64,000 nucleotides of DNA from the NCBI RefSeq assembly GCF_027486195.1, contig NZ_JAIXPP010000020.1:1-64000 (forward strand), written 5' to 3'. Origin of the DNA: Novosphingobium sp. GTDB lineage: Bacteria > Pseudomonadota > Alphaproteobacteria > Sphingomonadales > Sphingomonadaceae. The translations under genes and the position numbers were made by a program. Below the pieces are notes generated by a model. That model did no database searches. It saw only the letters and a list, made by a program, of their open reading frames with translations, and was not told where the DNA came from. Of this stretch, positions 10,282 to 27,596 are shown piece after piece (positions within the stretch are counted from its first letter, which is position 1; each line of letters starts with the position of its first letter).

Positions 10282-10309
10282 CTGAAAGGCGGACCGATAA
10301 GGCCCAGAG

Positions 10310-10348
10310 CGGCATGGCTACGGCGCAGCCCGATCCGTAGCCATGCCG
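10310..10348 (+). terminator. Strong hairpin after the TonB receptor gene
   Basis: CGGCATGGCTACGG at 10310-10323 pairs perfectly with CCGTAGCCATGCCG at 10335-10348 across an 11-base loop, 29 bases after the receptor stop. There is no T-tract, so it may act as a 3' end stabiliser or a factor-assisted terminator and not a classic intrinsic one. Confidence 0.55.
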
Positions 10349-11942
10349 TACGGGTGCGCTGGTGCGAGCGAGTTCGTCCACCGGCGGTCACTCTCCGCCA
10401 GCCCATCATTGTCCGATCGTTGCGCCGGTTTTGAAGCGGCCTGCTGGCTCGGCGATTGCCTCCTGCGCCTGTTGCCTAGCCGCGTTCCGGACGCAACCTC
10501 ATCAGCGCGCCAGGGCGCCGCTGTCGGCTGCAATAGCCGCAATTTTCGCGCGGACAGCGACGCACGCCGGAAATATCATGTAGCAATCCTCCAGACAGCC
10601 GGTCATCATCGAGGCCTCTCGCGGCGCCCGGCACCAATGCAGGGCGACAAGCAGGCAGAGCGTGGCATTGAGCCGGTCCTGGTCCGCCTTCGCCGGGGCA
10701 GCACGCTCTGTTTCGGCAGTGCACCAGCGGGCTACCTCGACTGCGCCGAACGCATCGAACGCCTTGCCGCGGCCGCAGCCACGGCCTGCCAATCCGAGTT
10801 GCGGCACGTTTTCCGGCGAGCGGGATTGTAGCGGTGCGCCGCCAGCCGAGCGAGGAACGTGAGATCAGCTGGGTAGTGCGCCGCATTTCGGCGCATCCGC
10901 GACGCCCGAATACGATCACGACTATAACCGACAGATCTATTCGCTTAACGGCCTGACCTACTACTGAGTGCACGCGGCGTGGGGCGGAAGCGCGTCAGGC
11001 TACCTTGGCGGTCGGGGCGCATTCCGTCCACTTCAACCGGACAGAGAATTGCGGCAGGTCCCCAGCAGTTCAGCCCATGGTTCACGAGTATGCCTTGCCC
11101 GGCGAAGAGCATCGATGGGGTCTCTAAGGCAGCGTAAATAGACAGATAAAATCTAAAACTGCTACTATCGCCCGCATACTTTAGTAAATTTAAATATTAT
11201 ATATTGCATTTCTTGTAAAAAGTATTTTCAATATTTTTCCAGCGGCTTTAAAACGTTCGTCATTGTATTAGTAAAGTTACTAAAATTTAGAGCGCGCGCT
11301 ACACAGTCTGATCGACCCTTAATTGTGAGGGTACTGCTGAAATGAGCTACGCTTGTGAAAAGCGCCGTTGTCGTATCCTCACTCCCCGCAAGCCGCAAGT
11401 CCGCTATCGGCTCACGCTCGCCGATCCTAGGTTACTATCTTCCGCCTCGCGGACGACCGGTTTATCCGATACCCGTCATTGGCAGACTGGCAAGGAAATG
11501 ACCGCATTGTCCCAATCTTTGCCATTCCTATTGCGCCGTCGGCACACGAGCGTGTCGCAAGATTCAACCAGCGCGATTCGTGCAGGGCAAGACGGCAGTA
11601 GGGGGACTTCTTCCCGACCGCACGGAACATAGAAAAATGTTTTGGGGGCATAAATGGGGGCACAAAGCAATTATTGAAGAATTTTTACTATTATTATCAG
11701 ATATTTAGATCAATAAATTGAGTCCTCTTCTGGCACCACTACCCCCTTAAGCGGCTGAAGAGCCAGGGGAGTTCGCGCGAGAGCGCTTGATCTCGCTCAA
11801 CAATCGTGTCCGAAAAATCGGCGTCCGGTCCCTTCATTCCTGTGGGATCGCCGTGTCCGCAGGAATCGGCACCTCAAGCCTAGGCTCTTCTCGTCGATTG
11901 TCTGGGCGCACCTGATCGACACCCCCAGCCTCTTGCGCAATC
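10349..11942. other. Gene-poor 1.6-kb stretch with an AT-rich core
   Basis: No open frame here has convincing composition, a ribosome site or recognisable domains. A short open stretch on the plus strand ending at the TGA 10965-10967 (last residues DYNRQIYSLNGLTYY) is rich in Tyr/Asp and looks like a possible decayed gene end, but nothing upstream continues it. About 11130-11310 and 11640-11720 are strongly AT-rich against a GC-rich background. This may be eroded DNA or old inserted DNA; no transposase, integrase or tRNA is visible. Confidence 0.5.
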
Positions 11943-11963
11943 CCGTATACTTGTAATCGACAA
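11943..11963 (+). promoter_or_regulatory. Weak composite GntR operator-like site before the SDR gene
   Basis: CCGTATACTT, one base, then TAATCGACAA. The layout matches the composite sites at 13760, 21241 and 24282 (a GNATNC-centred decamer, one base, then a TTGTCGACAA-like decamer), here with several mismatches. It lies about 37 bases before the SDR start. Tentative, supported mainly by the three better sites. Confidence 0.4.
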
Positions 11964-12002
11964 TCTTCTACCGACCATGCGTTTGCTCGGTGGAGAGGTA
12001 TG

Positions 12003-12779
12003 ATGGCGCTGACGGATAATGTACCCGGTCTCCTCAGCGGAGAAGTGGCCGTTGTAACGGGTGGGGGCCAAGGAAATGGAAGGGCAATTGCGAGGGGACT
12101 CGCAAAATCCGGTGCGTTCGTGTGGGTCGGGGATATTGATCTGGCGATGGCGCAGGAGACGGTAGCGTTGATCCAGCAAGACGGACAACATGGCGCCGCG
12201 CTTGCATGGGACATCAGCGATCCTGACCAATCAATCAAGGCGGCAAAGTCAATCCGAGCGGCTGGATCGCCAGTGTCCATTCTGGTGAACAATGCCGGGA
12301 TCGAAGCGCGCGGAAGTTCGGGCGAAGGCGATTATCAGGAAGTCTGGGCCAAGGTGCTGGATGTCAACCTCAATGGCACGATGCGGGTAACCGAGGCGCT
12401 TGGCGATCAGCTCGCCGAGCGGCGGGGGAGCATCATCAATATCGTTTCAGTGCAGGCGTTTGTGGCCTTGCAGGCGCATGCGTCGGCCTATGCCGTATCG
12501 AAGGGTGCGATTGCGCAATATACCCGATCACTTGCGATCGAGCTCGCGCCATCAGGCATTCGGGTCAATGCGATTGCGCCTGGCTTTTTTGAGACCCGGA
12601 TGACCGCGGGCGCCCGGTCAAATCCGGAAGCGATGTCGAAATTTCTGGCGCGGATACCCATGCAGCGGTTTGCTGATCCGGCTGAGCTGGCAGGCCCGGT
12701 GCTGTTTTTGGCCTCCGCTCTATCCAGCTACATGACCGGCACAGTGCTCGCTGTGGACGGCGGGTTGCTGGCAAATTGA
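12003..12779 (+). CDS. SDR-family NAD(P)-dependent oxidoreductase
   Basis: 258 residues from ATG 12003 (259 from the adjacent ATG 12000); GGAGAGG ending at 11997 favours the second ATG. Classical short-chain dehydrogenase: nucleotide motif TGGGQGNG, 'NNAG', catalytic Ser in 'NIVSVQ', then YAVSK (Tyr about 163, Lys about 167) and a C-terminal 'MTGTVLAVDGGLLAN'. It should oxidise or reduce a hydroxyl/keto group on a small substrate in the cytoplasm; specificity cannot be read. It is the first gene of the regulated catabolic locus, followed by the GntR gene 126 bp downstream. Confidence 0.88.
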   Translation: MALTDNVPGLLSGEVAVVTGGGQGNGRAIARGLAKSGAFVWVGDIDLAMAQETVALIQQDGQHGAALAWDISDPDQSIKAAKSIRAAGSPVSILVNNAGIEARGSSGEGDYQEVWAKVLDVNLNGTMRVTEALGDQLAERRGSIINIVSVQAFVALQAHASAYAVSKGAIAQYTRSLAIELAPSGIRVNAIAPGFFETRMTAGARSNPEAMSKFLARIPMQRFADPAELAGPVLFLASALSSYMTGTVLAVDGGLLAN

Positions 12780-12806
12780 GGGCATGATGCCGCCAATGCC
12801 CTGACC

Positions 12807-12819
12807 GCCAATGATTGGC
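12807..12819. repeat. Short perfect palindrome between SDR and gntR genes
   Basis: GCCAATGATTGGC, six-base arms around a central G, about 30 bases after the SDR stop and 87 bases before the regulator start. It could be a weak terminator stem or an operator; nothing decides between them. Confidence 0.3.
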
Positions 12820-12905
12820 AGACCTATCCGAAAACAGTCCGGTGTGGTTATCCTGCGTAACAGTCCGTTGCGAGCGGATTCGTCCATGAAGAAAGGGAAG
12901 CAGCC

Positions 12906-13664
12906 TTGGCCAACGTAACGCGGGAACCGAAAGGATCGAAGCCCCGCTCCGCCCCGCGATCCGCAACGACGCCTGGCGACGGGCCTTCACGCGGCTTTAG
13001 TTCGGTCAAGGTCTACGAGGCTTTGCGCAAGGATATCCTTGAGCTGAACATCCAGCCAGGCACCCTGCTTGACGAGACCGAGCTTGCGGAACGTTTCGGC
13101 TTGTCGCGCTCACCGGTGCGCGAGGCGCTGGTGCGGCTTTCGGCCGAAGGTCTGGTCAAGGTCCTGCGCAATCGCAGTTCGATTGTGGCACCGTTCGATA
13201 TCACCACCGTGCAGCATCACCTGACCGCCATCGACCTGCTCTATCGCGCTACGGCGCGGCTTGCAGCACTCAATCGCACGCAGGCTCAACTCGAAGCCTT
13301 GCAGGCGATGATCAAGCGGCATGCAACCGGCTTTGGCAGCTCCGATGGCCTGCAGCTTGTTCAAAACAATCGGGAGTTTCATGTCGCAATCGCGGAAGCC
13401 GGCGGCAATTCCATCTTCGTCACCTGGATCGCAACGCTGCTGGACCAGGGGCAGCGCCTGATGGGAATGTACGCGACCGATGTCGGGCCTGAGCGCCCGG
13501 ATGCCCTGCTGGACGATCACAGAGCTATCGTTGCGGCAATCGCGGCCGGCGATGCCGATGGCGCGGAAGGCGCCGCGCGCCAGGATGCGGCCGTCCTTTC
13601 AAGCCAGCTGAAGGCGCATATGTTCCGCCAGCAATTGGCCGAACTCGACGTCGGCAAGCGCTAG
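12906..13664 (+). CDS. GntR-family transcriptional regulator (FadR/FCD subfamily)
   Basis: 252 residues from a TTG at 12906, chosen because AAAGGGAAG lies five bases upstream; the nearby ATG 12886 is out of frame. A basic, disordered lead of about 35 residues precedes the winged helix-turn-helix (LDETELAERFGLSRSPVREALVRLSAEGLV, about residues 57-85), followed by an all-helical FCD ligand domain ('LVQNNREFHVAIAEAGGNSIFV', 'DDHRAIVAAIAAGDADGAEGAARQD'). Such proteins are usually ligand-released repressors of catabolic genes. Composite TTGNATNCAA-containing sites before neighbouring transcription units suggest it controls the whole 12-30 kb locus. Confidence 0.9.
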   Translation: MANVTREPKGSKPRSAPRSATTPGDGPSRGFSSVKVYEALRKDILELNIQPGTLLDETELAERFGLSRSPVREALVRLSAEGLVKVLRNRSSIVAPFDITTVQHHLTAIDLLYRATARLAALNRTQAQLEALQAMIKRHATGFGSSDGLQLVQNNREFHVAIAEAGGNSIFVTWIATLLDQGQRLMGMYATDVGPERPDALLDDHRAIVAAIAAGDADGAEGAARQDAAVLSSQLKAHMFRQQLAELDVGKR

Positions 13665-13759
13665 CCGCACCTCCAAAGGAACCGCTTGGCCGACTGCGGC
13701 CGCGTCGCAATTTTTTGCGAATTGGCCCTATCCATAACGCATCCAGAATTGTATTTATG

Positions 13760-13780
13760 TTGGATGCAAGTTGTCGACAA
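13760..13780 (+). promoter_or_regulatory. Composite operator-like site between gntR and flavoprotein genes
   Basis: TTGGATGCAA (13760-13769), one base, then the perfect palindrome TTGTCGACAA (13771-13780). The first decamer fits TTGNATNCAA, close to known FadR/VanR-type operators. A second inverted repeat, GCATCCA at 13739-13745 with TGGATGC at 13761-13767, overlaps it. It lies 63 bases before the flavoprotein start. The same composite recurs at 21241 and, inverted, at 24282. Confidence 0.65.
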
Positions 13781-13842
13781 ATGCTCAGAGACCAGTGAAT
13801 CTGCCACGTCGGATCGCTCGCTCCGGGGCCGGGTGAACTGCC

Positions 13843-15561
13843 ATGGATGAGGCGTTCGACGTCCTTGTGGTGGGATCGGGCGCTGGCGGGCTGGCGGCCG
13901 CTGCCACCGCCGCGCTGATGGGTGCGCGCGTGCTTGTGCTCGAAAAGGGAGACCGGATCGGGGGAACATCAGCGACATCCGGTGGGGAAATCTGGATACC
14001 CCGCAGCCGACAGGCCATCGCAGCCGGCATCGCGGACGGCGCGGACGCCGTGGAGACCTATATCCGGTCGGTAGCGGGAGACGACTTCAATGTCGCGCGC
14101 GCGCGCCGCTTCATCGACGCCGCGCCCGATGCCTTGGCCTTCTTCGAGCGCCATGCCGATCTCCGCTATGCCCTGATGCCCGGCTCGCCCGACTATCATT
14201 CCGAACGCCCTGGCGCATGTCCTGGCGGGCGCTCGCTCGCGGCGGAGCCGTTCGATGGGCGGCGGCTGGGCGCATCGTTCGAACTGGTACGCAGGCCGCT
14301 CGAGAACGCCTTGATCGCTGGCGGAACATCCGTCTGCACGCGGCTCGATGTTCCGCGCCTGCTCATGGCCGGCAAACGGCCACGCGATGCGGTCTATGCG
14401 GCGGGGCTTGTCGCACGCAGCTGGCGTGATCGATTGGCGGGCTACAGTCGCGGCACCCGGATGACCAATGGCAATGCGCTGGTAGGCCGATTGCTGCTGA
14501 GCTTGCTGGAAACCGGCGTCGAAATCCGGCTCGGCCATGAAGTGACAGGCTTGCACATGGTGGACGGCCGCGTGGATGGCGTGGACGTCAGCGCAGGCGG
14601 GCGCATGGCAAGGCTGCGCGCCAAGCGGGGTGTGATCCTCGCTGCCGGTGGCTTTTCCCATAGCGACGTGCTGAAAACGCAGCTCTTTCTCCATGTTGCG
14701 CGGGGGCAGGACCATGAGTCCCTCCCCCCCGCGACCAACACCGGCGATTCCATCAGGATCGCAAAGCGTGTCGGAGCGGGCGATCCTGCCAGCATGAAGC
14801 AACCGGCGGCGTGGGCCCCCGTTTCCCGCGTTCCCACTGCCGAAGGCCGCACCGCGCCATGGCCGCACTTCGGCGACAAGGGCAAACCCGGTGTGATCGC
14901 GGTAGACTGGCAAGGTCGGCGCTTCGTCAACGAAGCGGATTCCTACCACGCCTTTGTCGCCGCCATGCTCGCTGCAAGTAACGCATCATACGCCCCCGCC
15001 GCGTGGCTGATCGCCGATCACCGGGCCTTGCGCGCCTATGGGCTTGGCGCGGTCAGGCCCTACCCCTGGCGCCTTCAGCCTCACCTCCGGTCCGGCTATC
15101 TGCAGCAGGGCGGAACGATCGCGGAGCTCGCGTCGCGGATCGGTATCGATGCCGCCGCGCTCGGGAGAACGATTGCCGATTTCAATCGCCATGCCGCCGA
15201 TGGTCGCGATCCGCAGTTCGGGCGCGGAGAAAGCCTGTTCAATCGTCGCAGCGGTGATCCTGCGTGGACCCCGAACCCGTCCCTCGCCCCCCTGGACAAG
15301 GCACCCTTCTACGCGCTGCGGGTCTTGCCTGCCGATATCGGAACCTTTGCGGGCTTGCCGACCGACGAACATGCCCGCGTTCTGGGCACTTCGGGCGCAC
15401 CGGTCGATGGCCTTTACGCAGTCGGCAACGATGCGGCGACGCTGTTCGGCGGTGATTATCCCGCCGCCGGGATCACGCTGGGGCCAGCCCTGACATTCGG
15501 CTATGTCGCCGCACGCCATGCGCTCGGGGCCGGTTGGCCGGCGAACGACGATTGGGGCTGA
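13843..15561 (+). CDS. FAD-dependent oxidoreductase, 3-ketosteroid-delta1-dehydrogenase-like
   Basis: 572 residues. N-terminal dinucleotide fold 'VLVVGSGAGGLAAAATAALMG' with the acidic 'VLVLEKG', then 'GGTSATSGGEIWIP', which is diagnostic for the flavocytochrome c/KstD superfamily. The C terminus 'GLYAVGNDAATLFGGDYPAAGITLGPALTFGYVAARHA' is very close to the KstD FAD-closing motif. KstD enzymes introduce a double bond next to a ring ketone; related enzymes desaturate other cyclic ketones. With no other steroid-degradation gene in the window, a steroid substrate is not established. An operator-like site precedes the gene, tying it to the neighbouring regulon. Confidence 0.82.
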   Translation: MDEAFDVLVVGSGAGGLAAAATAALMGARVLVLEKGDRIGGTSATSGGEIWIPRSRQAIAAGIADGADAVETYIRSVAGDDFNVARARRFIDAAPDALAFFERHADLRYALMPGSPDYHSERPGACPGGRSLAAEPFDGRRLGASFELVRRPLENALIAGGTSVCTRLDVPRLLMAGKRPRDAVYAAGLVARSWRDRLAGYSRGTRMTNGNALVGRLLLSLLETGVEIRLGHEVTGLHMVDGRVDGVDVSAGGRMARLRAKRGVILAAGGFSHSDVLKTQLFLHVARGQDHESLPPATNTGDSIRIAKRVGAGDPASMKQPAAWAPVSRVPTAEGRTAPWPHFGDKGKPGVIAVDWQGRRFVNEADSYHAFVAAMLAASNASYAPAAWLIADHRALRAYGLGAVRPYPWRLQPHLRSGYLQQGGTIAELASRIGIDAAALGRTIADFNRHAADGRDPQFGRGESLFNRRSGDPAWTPNPSLAPLDKAPFYALRVLPADIGTFAGLPTDEHARVLGTSGAPVDGLYAVGNDAATLFGGDYPAAGITLGPALTFGYVAARHALGAGWPANDDWG

Positions 15562-15571
15562 TCGGGGCCCT

Positions 15572-17281
15572 TCAGGCGGTCTGACCGGCAACCCAGCGAT
15601 CAACACTGGCGGCGAGGACTGCAAGCGGGGCGGGCCCGACTGCCATGAGGCAATCATGGAAATCACGCAGGCGAAACCGCGATCCCAGCCGCCGCGCGGC
15701 ATCATCGCGCATCTGGCGGATCGACATATTGCCGATCTGGTACGACAGCGCCTGCCCCGGATAGCCGATATAGCGATCCACTTCTGTGGCGAGCGTTTCC
15801 TCCGGCAAGTTCAGATGACCCATCATGTAGGCGACCGCCACCTCGCGGCTCCAGCCTTTCCAATGAATGCCCGTATCCACGACCAGCCGCACGGCGCGCC
15901 ACAGCTCTGACTCGTAGACGCCGTAGCGCCGCGCGGGTGTGTCATAGAGATCGATATCGTGGCCAAGGCTCTCACTATAGACCGCCCAGCCCTCGACCGA
16001 GGCCATATTGCGGTATGCGCCGTGGCGGCGGAACGCGGGCAGTCCCGGAATTTCCTGCGCCAGCGCCACGTGCATGAGATGGCCGGGCCACGCCTCATGC
16101 AGCGCCAGCGGAATGTGCATATAGGCCGGCAGGCGCTCCGGCAGCGAGGTCACCCAATGGATACCCGGTGCGGACCGGTCCGCGGGCGCGGGCTGCGCAT
16201 AAGCAGGCGGGAGGCGCACCGAGAGCGCCTCGGGAATGCTCTTCACACCGTAAGTGGAGCGGGGCACTCGCCCGAACAAGTCCGGAATTCGGCCGTCGAT
16301 CTGCTTCGAGAGGCATTCGATCCGCTCCCTCAGCGCGTCGGCGCTCGGCGCGATCTGGGCCGGGTCTGCCGAAAGCGCCTGTCGAAACCCGGCGAGGTCA
16401 TCCGCAAACCCTGCATCGCTGGCGGCCTCAGTGCAAAGTGCGGTCAGGCGGGCGACTTCCTCCAGCCCCATCGCATGGATCGCGTCAGGTTCGGCATCGG
16501 TCGAAGCGAAATGCTCGATCAGATAGCGATACCAGCCTTCACCCGCAGGCGCGTCGGTGCAGGCGATCGTCTCGCGCGCGGAATCGCCGCCAAGCTCGTC
16601 CGCCATGAACCGCGCGAGGTTGGCCAGCGCCGGGTGAACGCCATCCTCAACCGCCGCGAGCGCCTGCGCTGCTTGCGACGTGCAGGGGTCTGGCCGGCGT
16701 TCAATCCGGCGAAACGGGGCCATGTAGCTACTGTCACCCGGCGCGGCGGAAATGGTGCCCGCAATCTGGGCCATGGCCCGGTCGATCACGATGCGCGGCC
16801 AGCGAATGCCGAGGTCCCGTCCCGCCCGGAGCGACTCCTTGATCCCCTCCAGCGCCGCTTCCACGCCCAGCAGGCGGTCCGCGTACCGCTCGGCGCTGTC
16901 ACTGTCCGAAAGCGAGGTGGCGCCCAGCGCAGACCCCAGCGTAAATTCGATGCCGAGAGGATAGAGCGAGGGCCTGAGATCGGCATGAACGGCGAGCGCA
17001 TCGTCCAGCGCTTTGAGATCGCGGGCCAGCATGTCGCGCGTGGCCAGTTGGGTCGGATCGAGCTCGTCCTGCGGAATGGCGGCCAGTTCGGCTAGCATCC
17101 CTCGCGCCGTAGCGGCGCGGCGCACATGATCGGCAGGAGCCTCGCGGAAGACGATGTCGCTTTCGACCGTCGCGCCGCCCATCACAGCGGCGAGCGGGCG
17201 TTCCTCGCACTGGAAATCCCAGTAGCGCGCGCAGAGGCTGTCGAGCGCCTGCGCGGCGTCGGTTTGCTGGGAATCAGGCAA
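15572..17281 (-). CDS. DUF885-family putative metallopeptidase
   Basis: 569 residues from a TTG at 17281 preceded by GGAGGAC; this start overlaps the end of the upstream gamma-glutamyltransferase-like gene by eight bases. The frame is open further 5' but only as a shadow. DUF885 signature: HEAWPGHLMH (His395, His401) and downstream EGWAVYSE (Glu about 430), a gluzincin-like zinc-binding pattern. No signal peptide is seen, so it is probably cytoplasmic. DUF885 members are mostly uncharacterised; hydrolysis of a peptide or amide bond is inferred from fold and from the operon partners (S9 peptidase, gamma-glutamyltransferase-like). Confidence 0.8.
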   Translation of the reverse strand: MPDSQQTDAAQALDSLCARYWDFQCEERPLAAVMGGATVESDIVFREAPADHVRRAATARGMLAELAAIPQDELDPTQLATRDMLARDLKALDDALAVHADLRPSLYPLGIEFTLGSALGATSLSDSDSAERYADRLLGVEAALEGIKESLRAGRDLGIRWPRIVIDRAMAQIAGTISAAPGDSSYMAPFRRIERRPDPCTSQAAQALAAVEDGVHPALANLARFMADELGGDSARETIACTDAPAGEGWYRYLIEHFASTDAEPDAIHAMGLEEVARLTALCTEAASDAGFADDLAGFRQALSADPAQIAPSADALRERIECLSKQIDGRIPDLFGRVPRSTYGVKSIPEALSVRLPPAYAQPAPADRSAPGIHWVTSLPERLPAYMHIPLALHEAWPGHLMHVALAQEIPGLPAFRRHGAYRNMASVEGWAVYSESLGHDIDLYDTPARRYGVYESELWRAVRLVVDTGIHWKGWSREVAVAYMMGHLNLPEETLATEVDRYIGYPGQALSYQIGNMSIRQMRDDAARRLGSRFRLRDFHDCLMAVGPAPLAVLAASVDRWVAGQTA

Positions 17282-18944
17282 GATGTCCTCCGGCGACCCC
17301 GGTCCGGCGCGGGTCGGTTGTCGCGGCCAGCCTGTCGCCTTCGCGCCAGCAGGCTTGAATCGACCCGGTGTGCCATTCGAGCCCCGCCATGGCGCGCATC
17401 CGCACGCCCATCGCTGCCAGCCCCGAAACCGCATCGCTACTGATCCGGTCTTCGGCCACGAAGCTCTCCTGATCGTCCATCATCGAACAGCGCGGAGCAT
17501 CGATCGCGGCCTGCGGATCGAGCCCGAAATCGAGCATGTTGGAGAGGATCTGCGGCACCACCAGGCAAGGCGCACCCGGCGTGCCGAGTCCCATGCGGGG
17601 TTTGCCATCCTCCAGGATGAAGGTGTGACCGACAACCCCGCGCGCCCGCACCCCGCTCACGAACTTGGCATGGAAAACGGGCTGCAGCGCGCTGAAGCCA
17701 TAAGCCGAGCCATGCATCGGTACGCCGCCGATAACCTGCCCGGGAATGCCGCCCGCCGCGCAAGTGGTCATCAGTTGAAGCCAGTTACCTTGCGCATCCA
17801 CGATCGAGAGCTCGCAGCTGCCGGAACGGGGGCCGAAGGCCGCCGCATCATGGGGCGTCGGTTCACCGATTGCGTTGGTGAAACCCAGCGGCAGATCGCC
17901 GACAGGTCCGCGCAGCGCGGTATGGCGGGTGAGGTCGATCTTTGGCCGCAGCCCGTTCAGCAGGCGCGCGAACTGGGCCTGCATCGCGTCATCCAGAAGG
18001 GGCGCCCAATCGTAGCCGCACACATCGGGATCGCCGATGTAAACGCATTGCTGAAAGGCATGCCGCAAAGCGTGCGACAGGTGAAAGAGATGGTCGGCGG
18101 TGAGGTAGCCGCCCGATTCGACCTGCTGGTGCCGCATGATCCCCAGCGCCAGAGCCGACATGACCCCGCTCATCTGCGGCGGCGCAGGCGCGACGATCTC
18201 GTGGCCGCGATGGTTGAAACGCAGCGGTTGCAGCCAGCGCGCGGGCACCGCCATATCGGCAAGCGTGATGCGCCAGCCGATGCGGTTGGCCTGCTCCACA
18301 AATGCGCGCGCCCAATCGCCGCTGATCATGTGCTCGGGGCCGATCTCGGCGAGTTGGCACAGTGTCTGAGCGAAGGCGGGATTGCGCAGCCGCTCGCCAA
18401 CATTGACCGGCAGCCCACCCGGACGGAACAGCGCGCGCCCCGCAGGCGATGCGGTAATGACGCTCTGATATTCGACCAGGACGCCATATTCGAAGCTGGA
18501 GACGAGATGCCCCTCCTCGCTCCAGGCAATCGCATCGGCGCACAGTTCCGCCCAAGGCAGCGTGCCGAACCGCTCGTGCAGCGCTTGCAGACCGGCAATC
18601 GAACCCGGAATCGAGGCGACCGAGCGCGCCCCTTGCGACGGCAAGGGGCTGAACGCGGGCAACCCTTCCGGCATGGTGCCGGTCGATTCCAGCTGGTGGT
18701 ATTCACCGGTGCGGGCAACGTAGAGCAGCCCGGTCAGCGCACCGGCAAGACAGGTCAGGTGCGGGCTCACCGCGCATTCGGTCAGCGCGCCGGCGACGCC
18801 AGCATCAAATGCATTGCCGCCCATGTCCAGTATGCGCCGGACTGTAGCGCCGACCGCGCTATGGTCGACGCTCCACGCGGCTGTCAGCCCGGTGACCGGC
18901 CGGCGCGGGCCGGGATTGATGATCTGTTCCGCACCCGGCACCAT
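17274..18944 (-). CDS. Gamma-glutamyltransferase-family (Ntn hydrolase) protein
   Basis: 556 residues. Family features: 'GGNAFDAGVAGALTECAVSPHLTCLAGALTGLLYV' near the N terminus, 'SIPGSIAGLQALHERFGTLPW' mid, and 'LGTPGAPCLVVPQILSNMLDFGLDPQAAIDAPR' in the small subunit. In classical enzymes the autocleaving nucleophile is the Thr of TTHxSVVD. Here the aligned stretch is SCELSIVD, so Ser376 replaces it. Ser is chemically possible, but the usual substrate-contact residues around it also differ. There is no signal peptide, unlike most gamma-glutamyltransferases. Middle gene of the minus-strand operon S9-GGT-DUF885. It could cleave a gamma-glutamyl or other amide conjugate. Confidence 0.8.
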   Translation of the reverse strand: MVPGAEQIINPGPRRPVTGLTAAWSVDHSAVGATVRRILDMGGNAFDAGVAGALTECAVSPHLTCLAGALTGLLYVARTGEYHQLESTGTMPEGLPAFSPLPSQGARSVASIPGSIAGLQALHERFGTLPWAELCADAIAWSEEGHLVSSFEYGVLVEYQSVITASPAGRALFRPGGLPVNVGERLRNPAFAQTLCQLAEIGPEHMISGDWARAFVEQANRIGWRITLADMAVPARWLQPLRFNHRGHEIVAPAPPQMSGVMSALALGIMRHQQVESGGYLTADHLFHLSHALRHAFQQCVYIGDPDVCGYDWAPLLDDAMQAQFARLLNGLRPKIDLTRHTALRGPVGDLPLGFTNAIGEPTPHDAAAFGPRSGSCELSIVDAQGNWLQLMTTCAAGGIPGQVIGGVPMHGSAYGFSALQPVFHAKFVSGVRARGVVGHTFILEDGKPRMGLGTPGAPCLVVPQILSNMLDFGLDPQAAIDAPRCSMMDDQESFVAEDRISSDAVSGLAAMGVRMRAMAGLEWHTGSIQACWREGDRLAATTDPRRTGVAGGHLA

Positions 18945-18985
18945 ACGCCTGCTCCCCAGCCTCTTGTCCGCTGCGCCGCGCGATA

Positions 18986-21106
18986 TCAGTTCGCGGGAGC
19001 GGCGGGCGCCACATCTTCGGGACCGTAGCGCGGGCTTTCGACTTGCGCACCGTGCGCCTTGAACCAGTCGATCATGGCGACCGTCACCTGTGCCTGATGG
19101 CTGGGATGCACTTCCAGCCCGTGCGGCTCGTTGGGGAATGTGACCAGCCTTGCATCGACGCCGTTCATCTTGAGCGACGAATAGAAGGCGACAGCCTGAT
19201 CCGGCGGAGTGATGCGATCATTGTCGCCCACCATCACGATCGTTGGCGTGTGCACGTTTCCGGCGAAGGTCAGCGGCGAGCGTCGGGCATAATCCTCCCG
19301 ATCTTCCCACACCGGTTTGTCAAACAGGAACGGGCGCATGTACGAGATGCTGGTGACATAGTATGTCCCCCAGTCGATCACCGGATAGAGCACAGCCGCC
19401 GCCTTGAACCGGTCCGAGTGCCCCACGGTCCAGGCGGTCAGAGTGCCGCCCGCGCTGCCGCCCGCCAGATAGACCTGATCCGGATCGGCCTCGCCAGCCG
19501 CGACCATCGCATCGATGGCGGCCACGGGATCGGCCTCCACCCCGATCGGGAACTTGCGATTGACGATATTGGAGAATGGCTCGCCATAGCTGCCGCTGCC
19601 GCGATAGTTGATGTAGGTCACGATGAAGCCGTGGGCGGCGAGCGTCTGGTAGCCCAGATCGAACCCCGGCCCGAAATCGCTGCTCACGCCGCCATGCACA
19701 TCCACGATCATCGGATAGCGCTTGCCCTTCTGGAAATTGGGCGGGCGGACAACCCAGCCCGCAATGTCCATGCCATCGGCCGCCTTGAAGCTGATCGGCT
19801 GCACGCTGCCCAATTGGCGCTGCGCGAGGAAGGCGGTATTCAGGTTCGAGACGACCCGCACCGGCTTGCCGGGTTCGGCAATCGCGATCTCGCTAGGCTG
19901 GTCGCCTTTCGACTGGGTGAAGGCCACCGTGCCGTTGGCGGCAACCGAGAAGCCGCCCTCATCGGCATAGGCAGTGAGCCTGCCGCCCATGGTATCCGCC
20001 AGGATCCTGCGCGAGCCATCAAGGCCGAACAGGCCAAGCTTGTGGGCACCGCGATCGACATAGGAGGCCACCACCGCCTTGTTGCCGCTCCACGCTACAT
20101 GCGAGAATGGCCGGTCCAGATCGGCGCCGAGCACACGGACATTGCCGCCCTCGCGGTCGCTGATGGTCAGTTCCTGCCGGAAATACCACTGCGCTTTGCG
20201 CACCTGATCGGAAATATAGGCAAGTTTGGTCCCGTCCGGCGAAATGCTCATACCATAATCCGAGCCATTGGGCGCGGTGAGCGCGCGGATGGCCCCGGTG
20301 TCGATGCGGATCTCGTAGAGCGTATACTGCCAGATGTTGCGCCAGAATTCGGTCGCGCGGTTGGCTGAAACGATTAGCGAGGCCCCGTCCCGCGACCACT
20401 GCACGCCCGCACCACGCGGCGGAATCGCGTCCTGGCTGAAGGCGATGCCGGCAGGATCGCCCACCGTGGGCTTCGCCGCATCGATAACCAGTGCCTCGAG
20501 ATGGGCGGGCCGGTTCTGGCCATCGGAGGGGCCCTGAAAGTCCAGCCGGTCAGAAATCCTGGCGGGCGGTTGCCGTTCGGCTCCGGCCGGACCCTTCAGC
20601 ACGACAGTCTTCTTTTCGAAGACCTGACGCACCGCCGCAAGGCGCGAACCATCGGGCGCCCAAGATAGTGCCATCAGCGGCATCCTGCTTGTGCGCAAGG
20701 TGCGCTCCGTGCCGTCAGCCAGATTGCGCACGATCAGCGAAAAGCCCTCGGCCCCGGCGGCCTGATAAGCGAGCTGCTTGCCGTCGGGCGACCACCGCGG
20801 CAACGAATCGTTGCGCGAACCGGTCGTCAGTTCGCTTTCGCGCCCTTGCTTCAGGTCGATCAGCTTCAGGCTCGAATGGCGCGTGTCGGTCTTCGCATCG
20901 GCCGTCTCAGCCACATAGACCACGCGCGATGCATCGGCGGAAATCTGTGGGTCGGATGCAAATGCGATTTGATACACGTCGGTAATGCGCAAGTTTTCAC
21001 GCGCCGCCAGTGGTCCTGCGAAAACCATGGCCGCCACCACGAGGGTAGCTCCGCCGATGCGGCCGGCGCTGGCGATCCCGCGGCCCCAAACCAATCCTGC
21101 CTTCAT
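18986..21106 (-). CDS. S9-family serine peptidase (prolyl oligopeptidase/acylaminoacyl peptidase-like), exported
   Basis: 706 residues from the ATG at 21106, preceded by AGGGAG at good spacing. N-terminal signal peptide (about residues 1-35, 'GGATLVVAAMVFAGPLAA'), then a WD-like beta-propeller with repeated 'SPDGKQLAY', 'APDGSRLAAV' and 'SPDGTKLAYISD' blades. The C-terminal alpha/beta hydrolase carries GGSAGG (Ser551), GDNDR (Asp about 630) and NEPHG (His about 662). It should cleave small peptides or N-acylated/amide substrates in the periplasm. First gene of the minus-strand operon, divergent from the M20/transporter operon, with a shared intergenic operator-like site. Confidence 0.88.
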   Translation of the reverse strand: MKAGLVWGRGIASAGRIGGATLVVAAMVFAGPLAARENLRITDVYQIAFASDPQISADASRVVYVAETADAKTDTRHSSLKLIDLKQGRESELTTGSRNDSLPRWSPDGKQLAYQAAGAEGFSLIVRNLADGTERTLRTSRMPLMALSWAPDGSRLAAVRQVFEKKTVVLKGPAGAERQPPARISDRLDFQGPSDGQNRPAHLEALVIDAAKPTVGDPAGIAFSQDAIPPRGAGVQWSRDGASLIVSANRATEFWRNIWQYTLYEIRIDTGAIRALTAPNGSDYGMSISPDGTKLAYISDQVRKAQWYFRQELTISDREGGNVRVLGADLDRPFSHVAWSGNKAVVASYVDRGAHKLGLFGLDGSRRILADTMGGRLTAYADEGGFSVAANGTVAFTQSKGDQPSEIAIAEPGKPVRVVSNLNTAFLAQRQLGSVQPISFKAADGMDIAGWVVRPPNFQKGKRYPMIVDVHGGVSSDFGPGFDLGYQTLAAHGFIVTYINYRGSGSYGEPFSNIVNRKFPIGVEADPVAAIDAMVAAGEADPDQVYLAGGSAGGTLTAWTVGHSDRFKAAAVLYPVIDWGTYYVTSISYMRPFLFDKPVWEDREDYARRSPLTFAGNVHTPTIVMVGDNDRITPPDQAVAFYSSLKMNGVDARLVTFPNEPHGLEVHPSHQAQVTVAMIDWFKAHGAQVESPRYGPEDVAPAAPAN

Positions 21107-21240
21107 CTTGATCTCCCTATCCAGCCAGCGCGTCATTCAGCGAAGGAAATGCGACGGCTTCTGCGTCCGCCCCGTCCGGAGCGAGTCGGGAAGCCGCTGC
21201 ACCAAACCCTTATTTTCCTTCTTGAACTTTGCCTCGATAT

Positions 21241-21261
21241 TTGCATACAACTTGTCGGCAA
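21241..21261 (+). promoter_or_regulatory. Composite operator-like site in divergent S9/M20 promoter region
   Basis: TTGCATACAA (21241-21250), one base, then TTGTCGGCAA (21252-21261). The order and the one-base spacing equal those of the site at 13760. It sits between the S9 start (21106) and the M20 start (21339), so it could control both directions. Confidence 0.65.
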
Positions 21262-21338
21262 GTTTCGCAATCCCTGCGAAAGATGGCGCCTGAAATGTGT
21301 TGCCACCCGCGCGCAACAGGCTCTTTGCAGGAGATTTC

Positions 21339-22526
21339 GTGACCGATCAGATTGACCGGATCCTCTCGGACACCGAATTGCGGCAGGATATGCAAGCCTG
21401 GCGCCACGATCTGCATCGCCACCCGGAGCTTGGCTTCGAGGAATCCAGAACGGCGGACCGGGTCGCGGACCTGATGCAGCAATGGGGCATCGAAGTGCAT
21501 CGTGGGCTTGGCGGGACCGGGGTTGTCGGGGTCATTCGCGGAGAGCAGGGCTTTGGGCGCCGAATCGGGATCAGGGCTGAGCTCGATGCCCTGCCGCTCG
21601 AGGAAGCCAACGGCTTTACGCACGCCTCGATCCATCCCGGGGTGATGCACGCTTGCGGCCATGATGGCCACGCCGCGATGCTGCTAGGCGCGGCCCGCTG
21701 CCTTGCGGCGGATCGCCGGTTCAGTGGCACGGTCCATGTGATTTTCCAGCCAGCCGAAGAACTGCTGGCAAGCGGTGCGCGGCGCATGCTGGCCGATGGC
21801 TTGCTCGATCACTTTCCTTGTGACGCCATCTATGCCGTCCACAATTTCCCCAGCCTCGCGCCCGGCACTGCCGGCATCCGGACAGGGCCGATCACCGCGG
21901 CGGTAGACAACTTCGAGATCCTGATCCGGGGGCGCGGCGGCCATGGCGGGATGCCGCATTTGTGCATCGATCCAGTCATTCCGGCCTGCGAATGCGTGCT
22001 AGCGCTGCAACGGATCGTATCGCGCTCGATCGATGCGACCGACGCCTGCGTGCTCAGCGCAACCATGCTGCAAGGCGGCGATGCGCCCAATGTCGTGCCC
22101 GATATGGTACGGATCGGCGGGACAGTGCGGACGCTGCGCGAGGAAGTGCGCGATCACGCGGAAACTGAACTGCGCCGCATCGCAGGCGCAGTGGCGCTGG
22201 CGCATCGGTGCGAGGCGGAAGTCCGCTATGTGCGAGGCCACCCGGCAACCACCAACAGCCCCCGCGAAGCCTCGCTCGCCGCCGCCGCGCTTGAACGGGT
22301 GCTGGGGCATGGCCAGGTCGACACCCAGTTCGGGCCGGTCATGGGCGGGGAGGACTTTTCCTACTTCCTGCAGCAGATGCCGGGCGCTTATGCGGTGCTG
22401 GGCCAGGGTGGCAGCGCGATGATTCACAATCCATCTTATGATTTCAACGACGCCATTCTCCCCCTTGGCGCAGCCTTCTTCGTGGCCGTCGTTCACGCGG
22501 AACTGAGCGGAACGCACGCCCCATGA
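21339..22526 (+). CDS. M20-family amidohydrolase (hippurate hydrolase-like)
   Basis: 395 residues from the GTG at 21339, preceded by CAGGAG at six bases; an upstream GTG (21297) lacks a ribosome site. Family motifs: 'WRHDLHRHPELGFEE', the metal-binding 'MHACGHDGHAAMLLGAA' (Cys106, His108), 'FQPAEE' (Glu140/141), 'GGHGGMPH' and 'MGGEDFSYFLQQMPGAY'. These are the marks of the M20D aminoacylase/hippurate/IAA-conjugate hydrolases, which release an acid from its amino acid. Cytoplasmic, no signal. It overlaps the transporter gene by ATGA, so hydrolysis of an imported N-acyl amino acid or amide is a reasonable inference. Confidence 0.9.
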   Translation: MTDQIDRILSDTELRQDMQAWRHDLHRHPELGFEESRTADRVADLMQQWGIEVHRGLGGTGVVGVIRGEQGFGRRIGIRAELDALPLEEANGFTHASIHPGVMHACGHDGHAAMLLGAARCLAADRRFSGTVHVIFQPAEELLASGARRMLADGLLDHFPCDAIYAVHNFPSLAPGTAGIRTGPITAAVDNFEILIRGRGGHGGMPHLCIDPVIPACECVLALQRIVSRSIDATDACVLSATMLQGGDAPNVVPDMVRIGGTVRTLREEVRDHAETELRRIAGAVALAHRCEAEVRYVRGHPATTNSPREASLAAAALERVLGHGQVDTQFGPVMGGEDFSYFLQQMPGAYAVLGQGGSAMIHNPSYDFNDAILPLGAAFFVAVVHAELSGTHAP

Positions 22527-23881
22527 CCCAGCACGCCACTAACACGACCACCAGCGCAGCCGGGCGGCTGGCCATCGGCACGCTTGTCCTTTTCGCCCTG
22601 CCCTCGATGACCCTGCAACTGATGCGAGGCCCGGCATTTGGGATTCTGCCGTCGCTCTATGCCGAAAAGTTCGGTCTCTCGCTCACCTCGATTGCAGGTC
22701 TCCTGCTGATTTTGCGACTGATCGACGGGGTTACCGACATCGGGATAGGCTATGCCTCCGATCGCACGCAGGACGGCTTTTTCGGACGCAAGGCCTGGAT
22801 GCTGATCGGCACGCTGCTGACAGCTGCCTCGATCTTCATGCTCTATGTGCCGCCCGCCGGCGCAACGCTCACGTACCTCTCGGTCTGGTTCTTCCTCGCT
22901 TACCTCGCGTGGACACTGATCGAGGTGCCCTATAGCGCCTGGGGCACCGAACTGACCCGCGATTACCGCGAGCGGTCTCGCCTTGCAGTTGCCCGCCAGG
23001 TGTTCACGGTCGGCGGGTCGGTGCTGCTTATCGTCATCCCGCTGCTGCCGTTTCTGCCCAGCCGCAGGATCACGTTCGAGACGCTGCATGTGGTCGCGTG
23101 GACCGTCGCCATCATCCTGCCGCTGTCGGTTCTGGCGGCTGCCCGGTTCGTCCCGCGCGGGCAATCGCTGGAACGCAACCATTCCCACACTCTGCGGGAG
23201 CTGTGGCTCAGTGCGCGCGAAAGCCCCGCTTTCCAGCGCTATCTGGCTGCCTACGCAATTCAGGAGTTCGGTGTCGGCGCGTTCGGCGCGCTGGCCTTCA
23301 TCTATATCGATTCCTACCTGGGGATCGGAATCTACATATCGGCTGCCTATGCCATCACGATCATCGGCGGATGGGCCGGTCTGGCCTGGTGGGGGCGCGC
23401 GCTCGGCAAAGGAGAGAAGCACCGGATCTGGGCGCTCACCGCCTTTGCGGCGGGCGGACTGCATATGCTCAATGCGCTGCTGACCCCGGGCACGGCGCTC
23501 ATGTTCCTGGCTATCAGCCTGGTCTTCCAGTTCTTCGTCATGGCCTGCGAGGCGGTGCCGATGGCGATCATCGGTGATCTGGTCGATCACAATCTGATGC
23601 GGCGCGGTGCAAACCGGGCAGGGCAATACGCGGCGCTGGCCATGGCCGCGCGCAAGGCCTTCCTCGGTCTTGGCGCTGCGGCAGGCCTCGCGATCGCGGG
23701 TTGGTTTCATTTCGCGCCCGGCCAGAAGCTCTACTCGCCCGAAGCCGTGATCGGCGTCAAGCTTGCCTATGTAGCCCTGCCTGCCCTCAGTCTGTTCGCT
23801 ACCGGGCTGATCATGTGGAACTTCCCCCTCAACGCTCGGCGGCAGGACATCATTCGGCGCCGCATCGCGCGGAGGGGATGA
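22523..23881 (+). CDS. MFS transporter, GPH (glycoside-pentoside-hexuronide:cation symporter) type
   Basis: 452 residues, twelve predicted membrane spans. The segment 'LLLILRLIDGVTDIGIGYASDRTQDGFFGRKAWMLIG' matches the MelB/GPH signature (Asp pair in helix 2, then D-R-T and GRK in the loop), as does 'IEVPYSAWGTELTRDYRERSRL'. GPH members bring glycosides, uronides or other polar catabolites through the inner membrane with H+ or Na+. It is coupled to the M20 gene, suggesting import of that enzyme's substrate. In this locus it would follow TonB-dependent outer-membrane uptake. Confidence 0.87.
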   Translation: MTQHATNTTTSAAGRLAIGTLVLFALPSMTLQLMRGPAFGILPSLYAEKFGLSLTSIAGLLLILRLIDGVTDIGIGYASDRTQDGFFGRKAWMLIGTLLTAASIFMLYVPPAGATLTYLSVWFFLAYLAWTLIEVPYSAWGTELTRDYRERSRLAVARQVFTVGGSVLLIVIPLLPFLPSRRITFETLHVVAWTVAIILPLSVLAAARFVPRGQSLERNHSHTLRELWLSARESPAFQRYLAAYAIQEFGVGAFGALAFIYIDSYLGIGIYISAAYAITIIGGWAGLAWWGRALGKGEKHRIWALTAFAAGGLHMLNALLTPGTALMFLAISLVFQFFVMACEAVPMAIIGDLVDHNLMRRGANRAGQYAALAMAARKAFLGLGAAAGLAIAGWFHFAPGQKLYSPEAVIGVKLAYVALPALSLFATGLIMWNFPLNARRQDIIRRRIARRG

Positions 23882-23901
23882 CTTGGCGGTTGGTCGCCTC
23901 G

Positions 23902-24246
23902 TCAGGCCGGGTTGACGACCGCGATTTCGATTTCCCGCACGATCAGCCGTTCCAGCCGTGAAACGTGGGCCAGCGTATCCTGCCGCACACTGCCTGCCAC
24001 GGGGCGGCTATAGGCCGCGTTGAGATCGTCCTCATTGGCAAACCACTGCTCGGCCACACCATCCCATTCCGTGTCGCCTGCAGGCTTGCCTGCGAGCAGA
24101 TCGGGCTTCTGCGCGATGTTGACGACATAGCGGACCAGCCGGGGCGCCGCTGCTGCGATGGGCGCGTGGCTTTCCAGCCACCAGCGCTGGAACTCTGCAT
24201 CGCTCAGATGCTCCGCCTTCCGCAAGAGCCAGACGATCTTGACCAT
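23902..24246 (-). CDS. EthD-domain small protein
   Basis: 114 residues: 'MVKIVWLLRKAEHLSDAEFQRWW', 'ESHAPIAAAAPRLVRYVVN', then 'AEQWFANEDDLNAAY'. This is the ferredoxin-like alpha+beta barrel of EthD/dabb proteins, which often occur beside catabolic oxygenases or dehydrogenases. Some family members are cyclases or dehydratases, others only accessory proteins; the role here is unknown. The gene is divergent from the TonB receptor operon with the operator region between, and convergent with the transporter gene. Confidence 0.85.
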   Translation of the reverse strand: MVKIVWLLRKAEHLSDAEFQRWWLESHAPIAAAAPRLVRYVVNIAQKPDLLAGKPAGDTEWDGVAEQWFANEDDLNAAYSRPVAGSVRQDTLAHVSRLERLIVREIEIAVVNPA

Positions 24247-24281
24247 TTTCTACCCCTGTACAGCTTCCCGGATGCAATACG

Positions 24282-24302
24282 ATGTCGACAATTTGAATGC
24301 AA
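24282..24302 (-). promoter_or_regulatory. Composite operator-like site before TonB receptor/EthD genes
   Basis: On the minus strand this reads TTGCATTCAA, one base, TTGTCGACAT. This is the same composite as at 13760 and 21241, inverted. It lies 36 bases upstream of the EthD start and 180 bases upstream of the TonB receptor start. Confidence 0.62.
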
Positions 24303-24399
24303 TGACATCCATACCCTCGAGGATTGACCGCCAGGAACAGCCATATAGCTGGAAAATGGCAGGACATAAGGTCGTAGCTTGTTTTATTTTGCACACAGC

Positions 24400-24409
24400 T
24401 TGCATCCAA
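24400..24409. promoter_or_regulatory. Single TTGNATNCAA half of the operator
   Basis: TTGCATCCAA. Its complement, with flanks, shares the 11 bases TTGGATGCAAG with the site at 13760. It lies 73 bases before the TonB receptor start, in a position suited to repression. The second decamer is not recognisable. Confidence 0.4.
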
Positions 24410-26662: not shown

Positions 26663-27596
26663 GGTTGGCAGCTCCCTTACCGGCCATACGGCCACGCATC
26701 GCAGGCCGCGGGGTTTTCCCCTGCGGCCTGTCGCGTTCGCGGCCGTGCTGGCCTGCGCGCAATCGGCCATAGCCGCCGACAAGCCAATCCGGCCGGATAT
26801 CCTCGCGGTCAGAGCGCAGCACCCGGGCCTTGCCGCCCAGATCGACAGCCCCGCCTATCGCGAGGCGATCCCCAATCTGCCCCGCCGCCCGCATGCGCGC
26901 TGGACGGTCCACGATTTCGCCCGGCCACAACCACCGATCGTGACGCCCCCCGCTGCAGCCTGCGCCGAGCCGCTGGCCGCCCCCTCCGATGCCATCGATC
27001 TGCTGGCAGGCGGGCTCAAGGATTGGACCGGCGAGCGCATCGCAGACTGGACGTTTGCGGGCGGCATCCTGCAATCGGGCGGCAAGGCGCTCAACATGAT
27101 CGCCACGCGCGCCGCGTTCGGCGATATCCAGCTGCATATCCGTTTCCGGACGCCCGATGGCCCGGACAAACCCTATGGCCAGCACCGCGGCAACAGCGGC
27201 GTCTTGTTCATGGGGCTCTACGAACTGCAGATCCTCGATTCCTTCGACAACCCCACTTATCCAGACGGCATGGCCGCCGCGATCTATGGCCAGACGCCGC
27301 CCCGCGCCAATGCCGCGCGCCCGCCGGGCCAATGGCAGTGCTATGATGCCGTGTTCCGCGCACCGCGCTTTTCTGGCGGCAAACTCAGGAGCCCTGCCCG
27401 TATCACCGTGTTCTGGAACGGCGTGCTGGTCCAGGATGCGCAGCCCATCTTTGGACCGACAGCAGCCGCCGCGATCCTGCCTTACAAGCCGCATGCCGCG
27501 CAGGCGCCGTTGCTCTTGCAGGATCACGGCGATCCCACTGGACGAGTGGCGTTCAGCAGCCTGTGGGTTCGCCGATTGAAGCCGGAGCCCAAGTGA
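26649..27596 (+). CDS. Exported DUF1080 protein (3-keto-glycoside hydrolase/lyase family)
   Basis: About 315 residues if GTG 26649 is used (GAGG ten bases upstream), overlapping the receptor gene by 14 bases; an earlier frame is a shadow. A signal sequence 'FAAVLACAQSAIAA' suggests export. The C-terminal domain has all DUF1080 marks: 'LLAGGLKDW', 'GNSGVLFMGLYELQILDS', 'YPDGMAAAIYGQTPP', 'PPGQWQCYDAVFRAPRF', 'ITVFWNGVLVQD' and 'LLLQDHGDP'. Characterised family members act on 3-keto-glycosides made by a dehydrogenase. The GMC dehydrogenase gene follows at once, so a two-step oxidise-then-cleave pathway is likely (inference). Confidence 0.85.
   Translation: MPASEVGSSLTGHTATHRRPRGFPLRPVAFAAVLACAQSAIAADKPIRPDILAVRAQHPGLAAQIDSPAYREAIPNLPRRPHARWTVHDFARPQPPIVTPPAAACAEPLAAPSDAIDLLAGGLKDWTGERIADWTFAGGILQSGGKALNMIATRAAFGDIQLHIRFRTPDGPDKPYGQHRGNSGVLFMGLYELQILDSFDNPTYPDGMAAAIYGQTPPRANAARPPGQWQCYDAVFRAPRFSGGKLRSPARITVFWNGVLVQDAQPIFGPTAAAAILPYKPHAAQAPLLLQDHGDPTGRVAFSSLWVRRLKPEPK

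Follow-up and report, generated by a model that had tools for sequence, protein, structure and literature searches.

Genes and composite sites of the locus

We analysed a 64,000-nucleotide stretch of Novosphingobium sp. DNA (contig NZ_JAIXPP010000020.1, positions 1 to 64,000 of the forward strand; called the window below), in which a 21-bp element, here named the composite, recurs around a gene cluster that encodes a GntR-type regulator. The core genes of this cluster code for a flavoprotein, an SDR dehydrogenase, an EthD-domain protein and a TonB-dependent receptor, and by gene order the cluster comprised six units. In the SDR-gntR unit the SDR gene (12000-12779, plus strand, identified by Pfam and 62% identical to an SDR in the relative locus L039) precedes the gene of the GntR/FCD regulator (12906-13664, plus strand). 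The FAD_binding_2 flavoprotein (13843-15561, plus strand, Pfam) had 3-oxosteroid 1-dehydrogenase (7p18) as its nearest solved relative in a PDB sequence search. A minus-strand run of an S9 peptidase, a gamma-glutamyltranspeptidase-like protein (GGT) and a DUF885 protein (15572-21136, Pfam) diverges from a plus-strand unit (21339-23881, Pfam) consisting of an M20 amidohydrolase, which has a GTG start with AGGAG ahead of it, and an MFS_2 transporter. The EthD-domain protein (23902-24246, minus strand; Pfam EthD 4.2e-11 and an open reading frame (ORF)) and the TonB-dependent receptor (24482-26662, plus strand, Pfam) are likewise divergent; the receptor start was chosen at 24482 in an ORF that opens at 24158. 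No second helix-turn-helix protein was found among the 20 locus proteins scanned with Pfam, in agreement with the original prediction, made from the letters of the window, that the GntR/FCD protein is the sole regulator in the locus.

The composite has the form TTGNATNCAA-N-TTGTCGNCAA, two decamers separated by a 1-bp gap. Each decamer is a 10-bp palindrome, one AT-centred and one CG-centred, and their centres lie 11 bp apart. The three nearly intact copies of the prediction were found again. Operator 1 (13760-13780, plus strand, TTGGATGCAAGTTGTCGACAA) has no mismatch and lies 62 bp from the flavoprotein start. Operator 2 (21241-21261, plus strand, TTGCATACAACTTGTCGGCAA), also without mismatch, is situated between the divergent S9-GGT-DUF885 and M20-MFS units, 77 bp from the M20 start codon and 104 bp from that of S9 (134 bp with an internal start). 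Operator 3 (24282-24302, minus strand, TTGCATTCAAATTGTCGACAT) has one mismatch and is positioned in the EthD/TonB-receptor divergon, 35 bp before EthD and 179 bp from the receptor start. A lone half-site had been described at 24400-24409; it turned out to be part of a degenerate composite 4 (24389-24409, minus strand, three mismatches), 72 bp before the TonB receptor. Its centre is 107 bp from that of operator 3 in the same divergon. With a matrix built from the other three sites composite 4 scored 20.1 bits, the fourth best place in the window, and column-permuted matrices gave a mean of 0.00 such places.

The left box equals TTGNATNCAA at all four of these sites, so a description as a weaker half-site only does not fit the window. 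The right box, TTGTCGACAA, carries GT, two bases and AC as in operators of the FCD group, and judged by its letters the predicted closeness to FadR/VanR-type GntR operators holds. The second box, 11 bp from the first centre, falls inside the 7-12 nt range known for extra GntR boxes, and its position is conserved.

Rarity of the composite in the genome and the family

Dinucleotide shuffles of the window contained 0.03 matches at up to three mismatches, compared with the four found, and the flanks of the composite copies had no visible sequence in common. We then considered the whole genome assembly (4,731,322 bases, 130 contigs, 91.67% complete). At up to one mismatch it contained three composites, all in this cluster, and the equally good matches in other promoters that would speak against a regulon were absent at this threshold. 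The same search of 397 genomes of the family gave these three and one match among the 396 others. At up to three mismatches the own genome held seven matches, four of them in the cluster; the pattern read backwards gave two. The right decamer TTGTCGNCAA alone was common (62+66 matches in the genome), and thus the pairing carries the specificity. A looser form, the left half-site with the right box, occurred at 21 places at up to two mismatches, against 8 for the control.

The regulator and its relatives

The regulator fits the FCD (FadR/VanR) group of the GntR superfamily. Both the GntR winged helix (8.5e-18) and the FCD domain (3.6e-21) were above the Pfam cut-offs, the tree described below agreed, and the modelled fold (monomer) was near the structures of Atu1419, McbR and AlkR. 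In the alignment column of D227 of the window protein, Asp was present in 25 of 25 aligned relatives. Many FCD regulators have His as the third metal-binding residue at the matching column, and metal use of the window regulator may differ from theirs.

In a protein search the best 120 relatives were 84-46% identical, many of them on short contigs; among the relatives listed in the initial 60-relative search the top-scoring match was 35% identical. Viral contigs gave no relative, and plasmids only relatives below 60% identity, none covering 80% of the query. Close orthologues were rare. At E<=1e-40 they were present in three of the 397 family genomes, one being that of the window, and with the same query and threshold in 2 of 250 genomes in the family of L040 (L040's own included). 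With the L045 regulator as query, one of 349 genomes in the order of L045, its own, was found at E<=1e-50. All locus comparisons are based on a scan of species genomes that gave 80 loci (numbered with an L) with regulators 60-37% identical.

In a tree of 82 of 83 rows (L089 is missing, as rows with a stop in the match were dropped) the window protein formed one clade with L039-L046, L048 and L129 (SH-aLRT 99), below called the window clade. The opposite, HypR-like sister clade consisted mostly of Rhizobiales, Rhodobacterales, Devosia and Burkholderiales proteins. In the window protein the first conserved helix motif is preceded by a tail of 35 residues, of which residues 1-3 and 5-26 had a pLDDT below 50 in the model. 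The N-terminal tails of nine clade members were 21-47 residues long with a net charge of +4 to +10; the 67 other relatives had a median of 20 residues and +2. Starts were guessed in this survey, and the motif had no match in four of the 80 loci (L071, L081, L093, L115).

Conservation of the paired boxes

Around the relatives of the regulator the boxes kept their 1-bp gap; conserved sites in orthologous loci were what the prediction had named as support for itself. At up to three mismatches a gap of 1 gave 53 matches in 46 of the 80 loci, against 1-15 matches at gaps 0 and 2-8; at up to two mismatches the counts were 34 and 0-3, respectively. By a cruder ORF caller, 23 of the 53 gap-1 matches lay outside ORFs. 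The pair was also recovered in a survey that made no use of the pattern, covering up to 300 bp from gntR in the 69 sister-clade loci L050-L118. There the commonest 8-mer was GTCGACAA (53 loci), and 64 TGTCGACA sites were present in 48 loci. TTG stood 11 bp ahead on one side in 35 of these 64 sites, and in no more than three at each of the other offsets between 6 and 25; TTGNAT stood 11 bp ahead of the TGTCGACA box in 30 sites and in at most two at other offsets. In sister-clade sites chosen with the pattern, most left boxes were the half-site TTGYATTTTA, and the right box hardly varied from TTGTCGACAA. Most strong sites of the window clade had a left box that forms a palindrome of its own around GNATNC. 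Two composites were observed in each of two sister-clade loci, L055 (9850 and 14115) and L130 (7968 and 8726), flanking gntR or by a dihydrodipicolinate-synthase (DHDPS)-family gene.

From 31 distinct sites of L050-L118, none of them from the window or the window clade, we built a sister-clade matrix. Applied to about 128,000 positions of the window it placed operators 3, 2 and 1 at ranks 1, 2 and 3 (32.4, 30.0 and 27.2 bits), followed by scores of 15.4, 14.2 and 10.9 bits. The best place outside the cluster (15.4 bits; 41229-41249, TTACATGGACTTAGTCGACAA) lies more than 400 bp from the nearest called start and is possibly an extra site or a chance match. The score of 14.2 bits belongs to a possible third box (13749-13758, plus strand, TTGTATTTAT, seen in the sequence) taken as a pair with the next box; it abuts operator 1 in the same 11-bp register, and permuted matrices gave 0.11 such places. 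In L046 (14393-14425) a third box, AAGTATACAA, is seen ahead of the TonB-receptor pair, there with a 2-bp gap.

The score of 10.9 bits was reached at 11943-11963 (plus strand), 36 bp before the SDR gene, which the prediction had listed as a weaker copy. Six places in the window were as good, against 0.31 with permuted matrices. A composite-like place is present there, but it has six mismatches, is outside the set at up to three mismatches and was marginal in both matrices; we therefore rejected it as a clear extra copy. The prediction had counted four transcription units with composites before them. By our count clear sites precede five units, and at the sixth, SDR-gntR, the site is marginal.

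A placement test covered eleven stretches: the window, L039, L040, L041, L042, L044, L045, L046, L119, L120 and L129. It left out L043, which has only gntR and a 32% SDR of the window genes (best score 12.8 bits), and L048, a near copy of L046. With ORFs called mechanically, 20 of the 25 sites of at least 12 bits were upstream of called genes, where 16.7% were expected by area (P 6e-12). By tblastn or inspection, two of the five remaining sites sit just before EthD genes and one just before a DUF2817 gene; the count was left unchanged. Column-permuted matrices gave a mean of 0.76 sites of at least 12 bits (100 trials, maximum 4); for 22 bits or more, ten sites were found against none permuted. 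When the gap was varied with the matrix, gap 1 gave 10 sites of at least 22 bits and gaps 0 and 2-10 gave 0-2; at 12 bits the corresponding numbers were 26 for gap 1 and 3-16 for other gaps. By comparison of sequences, the composite thus appears tied to this GntR/FCD regulator.

Target promoters in relatives

The promoters of relatives were checked one by one with the sister-clade matrix at a cut-off of 12 bits, which 17 of 33 reached (two rows are one shared site). Among TonB-receptor promoters six of seven had a site: L039 17.4, L040 28.8, L041 27.5, L044 18.3, L046 23.5 and L129 24.2 bits. The same was found for four of five EthD or SDR-EthD promoters, namely L119 (24.6 bits, shared with a divergent flavoprotein), L120 (20.1), L045 (20.8) and L046 (29.0). 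The hosts of these TonB-receptor and EthD/SDR/flavoprotein promoters are alpha-, beta- and gammaproteobacteria. The recurrence upstream of orthologous targets gives the support that the prediction had asked for. In the cluster of Sphingosinicella microcystinivorans (L044 and L119, one contig) sites were also present before an S15 peptidase, a transporter and an S33-like hydrolase. Eight window-clade relative genomes contained 11 composites at up to two mismatches, eight of them in the cluster.

In Rubrivivax (L040) the TonB receptor, EthD, flavoprotein and SDR genes are consecutive on one strand (13503-18635) behind one composite. This is the best argument that the separate units of the window form one pathway, and it supports the claim of the prediction that separate operons are tied together.

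Comparison with known GntR systems

HypR is the GntR regulator of hydroxyproline catabolism in Sinorhizobium meliloti and other proteobacteria, with hypD, hypH, hypS and hypO in its regulon (PMC5343134). It shares the operator core with the window, TTGTCGACAA as right box with TTG 11 bp ahead; the window operators are picked up by the sister-clade matrix, and the HypR clade, which includes an S. meliloti pSymB protein, is sister to the window regulator's clade in the tree. Unlike the window it has other target genes, a left box that is mostly a half-site, and shorter, less basic tails (starts guessed). On S. meliloti pSymB a site of 39.9 bits, TTGTATTTTATTTGTCGACAA, was located between gntR and a DHDPS-family gene. 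The gene order there is GntR, DHDPS family, Ldh family, aldehyde dehydrogenase, amino-acid ABC transporter and FAD oxidoreductase, and from this order we read the locus as the hyp cluster. Members of these families were also among four proteins scanned from L055, L079 and L099. Membership of the window regulator in HypR proper was rejected, because DHDPS-family, Ldh and aldehyde dehydrogenase proteins were not among the 20 proteins scanned and the protein falls in the sister clade.

Atu1419, a VanR-type FCD repressor of Agrobacterium fabrum, is reported to be a tetramer that binds single 10-bp palindromes and can loop between sites 190 bp apart; one good palindrome is accompanied by a degenerate one at a distance of 109 bp (PMC7797058). 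It resembles the window in its FCD fold and 10-bp palindromic operators, and in both systems a degenerate operator accompanies a good one at about 107-109 bp; the reported operators are single palindromes rather than a one-turn pair. For FadR-, HutC- and YtrA-type GntR regulators extra weaker half-sites 7-12 nt from the palindrome centre are reported, and for FCD operators a palindrome with GT and AC two or three bases apart (PMC4494728). As in those systems the window has a second box near a palindrome (11 bp centre to centre), but where the report gives weaker half-sites, the second box here is palindromic over its full length and differs in its centre. The operator reported for E. coli NanR is (GGTATA)3, three repeats bound cooperatively via a 32-residue N-terminal tail (PMC8012715). 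Like the window regulator NanR is an FCD-type GntR protein with an N-terminal extension and several dimers on adjacent boxes (predicted in the window); its described boxes are direct repeats about half a turn apart, whereas those of the window are palindromes with centres 11 bp, one turn, apart. The layout had been called unusual for the family. It is unusual, though not without precedents in the reported extra half-sites and the three NanR repeats: tandem boxes and extra half-sites are known in GntR, and two conserved palindromes one turn apart add a new form to these. The literature search found, among the matches listed, no paper on a paired-palindrome GntR operator and, judged by title and with RegPrecise motif pages outside the search, no paper that describes TTGTCGACAA as an operator of GntR regulators.

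Proposed mechanism and alternatives

The composites are likely to be the switch that would place the whole pathway under one GntR-type regulator. In our reading, which we consider highly probable as a whole, the GntR/FCD protein (12906-13664) uses the composite as its operator, two dimers occupy it until an intermediate releases them, and five units are switched together. One dimer would bind each palindrome, and since the centres are 11 bp apart the two would lie side by side on the same helix face, about one turn apart; in its ideal form each decamer would be a normal FCD-type operator with GT, two bases and AC. Repression is the norm in the GntR family, and from this norm together with the papers cited above we infer that the GntR protein would act as a repressor. 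Cooperative repression by a double dimer, lifted by an intermediate, is the mechanism we prefer, with binding, stoichiometry, sign and ligand all predicted. An intermediate of the pathway would release both dimers, and one ligand would in this way jointly switch on the flavoprotein, S9-GGT-DUF885, M20-MFS, EthD and TonB-receptor units. Operator 3 and the weak composite 4, 107 bp apart, might be bridged by a loop as in Atu1419. The architecture may represent a strengthened HypR-type operator, the left box being mostly a half-site in the sister clade and mostly a full palindrome in the window clade, and the longer, more basic N-terminal tails could mediate the cooperativity between dimers as in NanR.

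Several observations weigh against this reading. No site of at least 12 bits was found in 16 of the 33 relative promoters, among them the TonB-receptor promoter of L045 (5.4 bits), the EthD-FAD-SDR run of L039 (8.6 bits), the flavoprotein promoter of L045 (10.8 bits) and both checked promoters of L042; the genomes of L042 and L045 had no composite at up to two mismatches. None of six stand-alone gntR promoters of relatives reached the cut-off. The ten nearest relative loci (L039-L048) yielded no S9, GGT, DUF885 or M20 gene, and operator 2 therefore has no conserved counterpart. The three composites outside the cluster in the window-clade genomes were all in the Rhodoferax genome of L039, inside called ORFs. 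Composite 4 is weak by the sister-clade matrix, with 5.8 bits only and 11 places equal or better against 1.61 with permuted matrices, and the place at 11943 is weak by the window-site matrix (9.0 bits; 29 places as good, 13.4 permuted). The training sites of the sister-clade matrix were chosen with the pattern of the prediction and are not wholly independent of it; the pattern-free survey is. The tree was a quick search with long branches flagged, the window's branch included. Three sigma-70-like promoters were matched in the window against 2.4 in shuffles, none placeable beyond chance. As the 11943 place is marginal and the stand-alone gntR promoters of relatives lack a site, autoregulation of gntR is doubtful.

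The strongest alternative point concerns the number of dimers. A single dimer could bind TTGTCGACAA as the operator proper, with the left box as an auxiliary half-site aiding one extra subunit; the half-site TTGYATTTTA beside a nearly invariant right box in the sister clade and the weaker boxes reported 7-12 nt from the centre (PMC4494728) fit such an arrangement. The left box, however, is palindromic around GNATNC in the window and in most strong sites of its clade, and we regard one dimer as possible though doubtful. The regulator could instead be an activator and the composite an upstream activating site. The sites lie 35-134 bp before start codons, promoters could not be placed relative to them, and FCD regulators are reported to act either way depending on position (PMC6608401). 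Against this, the nearest characterised relatives, HypR (PMC5343134) and, as reported, Atu1419 (PMC7797058), repress, which makes activation unlikely.

It could further be argued that the composite belongs to another, unlinked regulator and that gntR is a bystander, given the marginal site before gntR and its absence from the stand-alone gntR promoters of relatives. The pair nevertheless tracks gntR relatives across three proteobacterial classes and two different pathways, and with no second helix-turn-helix protein among those scanned in the locus we judge this very improbable. Chance or a dispersed repeat might be suspected for short degenerate palindromes, which are common, as the frequency of TTGTCGNCAA alone illustrates. 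The shuffles, the genome-wide scan, in which the three best copies are all here, and the permuted matrices led us to reject this explanation; the unlike flanks of the copies and their recurrence before orthologues speak against it too, and we give it practically no credence.

Neighbouring features

Behind the TonB receptor, genes for a 3-keto-disaccharide hydrolase, a GMC oxidoreductase and a gluconate-2-dehydrogenase subunit 3-like protein (26442-29919, plus strand, Pfam) possibly belong to the receptor operon; the first start is not settled. They resemble a glycoside 3-dehydrogenase module adjoining the TonB receptor. On the other side of the cluster, the stretch of about 1.6 kb that separates the SDR gene from the first TonB receptor (10300-11950) contained only short ORFs and AT-rich patches, and might be the boundary of an acquired cluster. 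One of the sigma-70-like matches, on the minus strand, overlaps operator 1. A terminator-like hairpin lies 3' of gntR (13695-13709); the window contained seven such hairpins against 8.2 in shuffles.

Possible substrate and significance

The NCBIfam models placed the flavoprotein near cyclic-ketone desaturases but below cut-offs (ChcC2, 484.6 bits against a cut-off of 900). Steroid-like, cyclohexanecarboxylate-like, glycoside and cyanopeptide substrates were weighed, and none was chosen. Peptidase and hydrolase genes accompany several relatives: S15 peptidases in L039, L044 and L045 (and L129, by resemblance of the first residues), S33-like hydrolases in L046 and L119, and M81/MlrC-type metallopeptidases near the gntR relatives of L039 (5119-6636) and L040 (10963-12516). 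Enolase-superfamily (MR_MLE) genes, which may be of the dipeptide epimerase kind, are present in L039 and L119. An arginase-family gene (L045) and HPPD (L120) were each found in a single relative. The hosts of the relatives include Sphingosinicella microcystinivorans and Paucibacter toxinivorans, and the latter is reported to degrade several cyanopeptides (PMC8068134).

As a speculation that we ourselves think unlikely, a HypR-related regulator may have been re-tuned to paired palindromes, its scattered and sporadically occurring regulon degrading non-ribosomal peptides of cyanobacteria with a hydroxylated proline analogue, for which aeruginosins would be the best fit. The core of aeruginosins is Choi (2-carboxy-6-hydroxyoctahydroindole). 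TonB uptake would be followed by proline-type or other peptidases or amidases (S9, S15, S33-like, M20, M81); the SDR and the 3-oxosteroid-dehydrogenase-like flavoprotein would oxidise and desaturate the hydroxycyclohexane ring; the arginase-family gene could serve the agmatine end and HPPD the hydroxyphenyl end. Against this, no site precedes the arginase-family gene or the S15 gene in L045, HPPD may be part of normal tyrosine degradation, and the substrate may be steroid-like or glycosidic instead of a cyanopeptide. We found no aeruginosin catabolic gene cluster in the literature, judged by title or start of abstract among the matches listed, and a 2025 review states that there are no explicit studies of microorganisms degrading aeruginosins (PMC12116083). 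If the guess were true, genes would be named for microbial aeruginosin breakdown.

If the proposed mechanism is true, the composite would offer a clean system for the role of a second box beside a GntR palindrome, a question that the report on extra half-sites leaves to experiment (PMC4494728), because at one and the same place most left boxes of the sister clade are half-sites and most of those in the window clade full palindromes. Derepression of any of these promoters could then be used as a ligand screen. The genes of the regulon are scattered in some genomes and form one run in others, and the 21-bp word would be the key to an undescribed catabolic regulon, showing which operons belong together.

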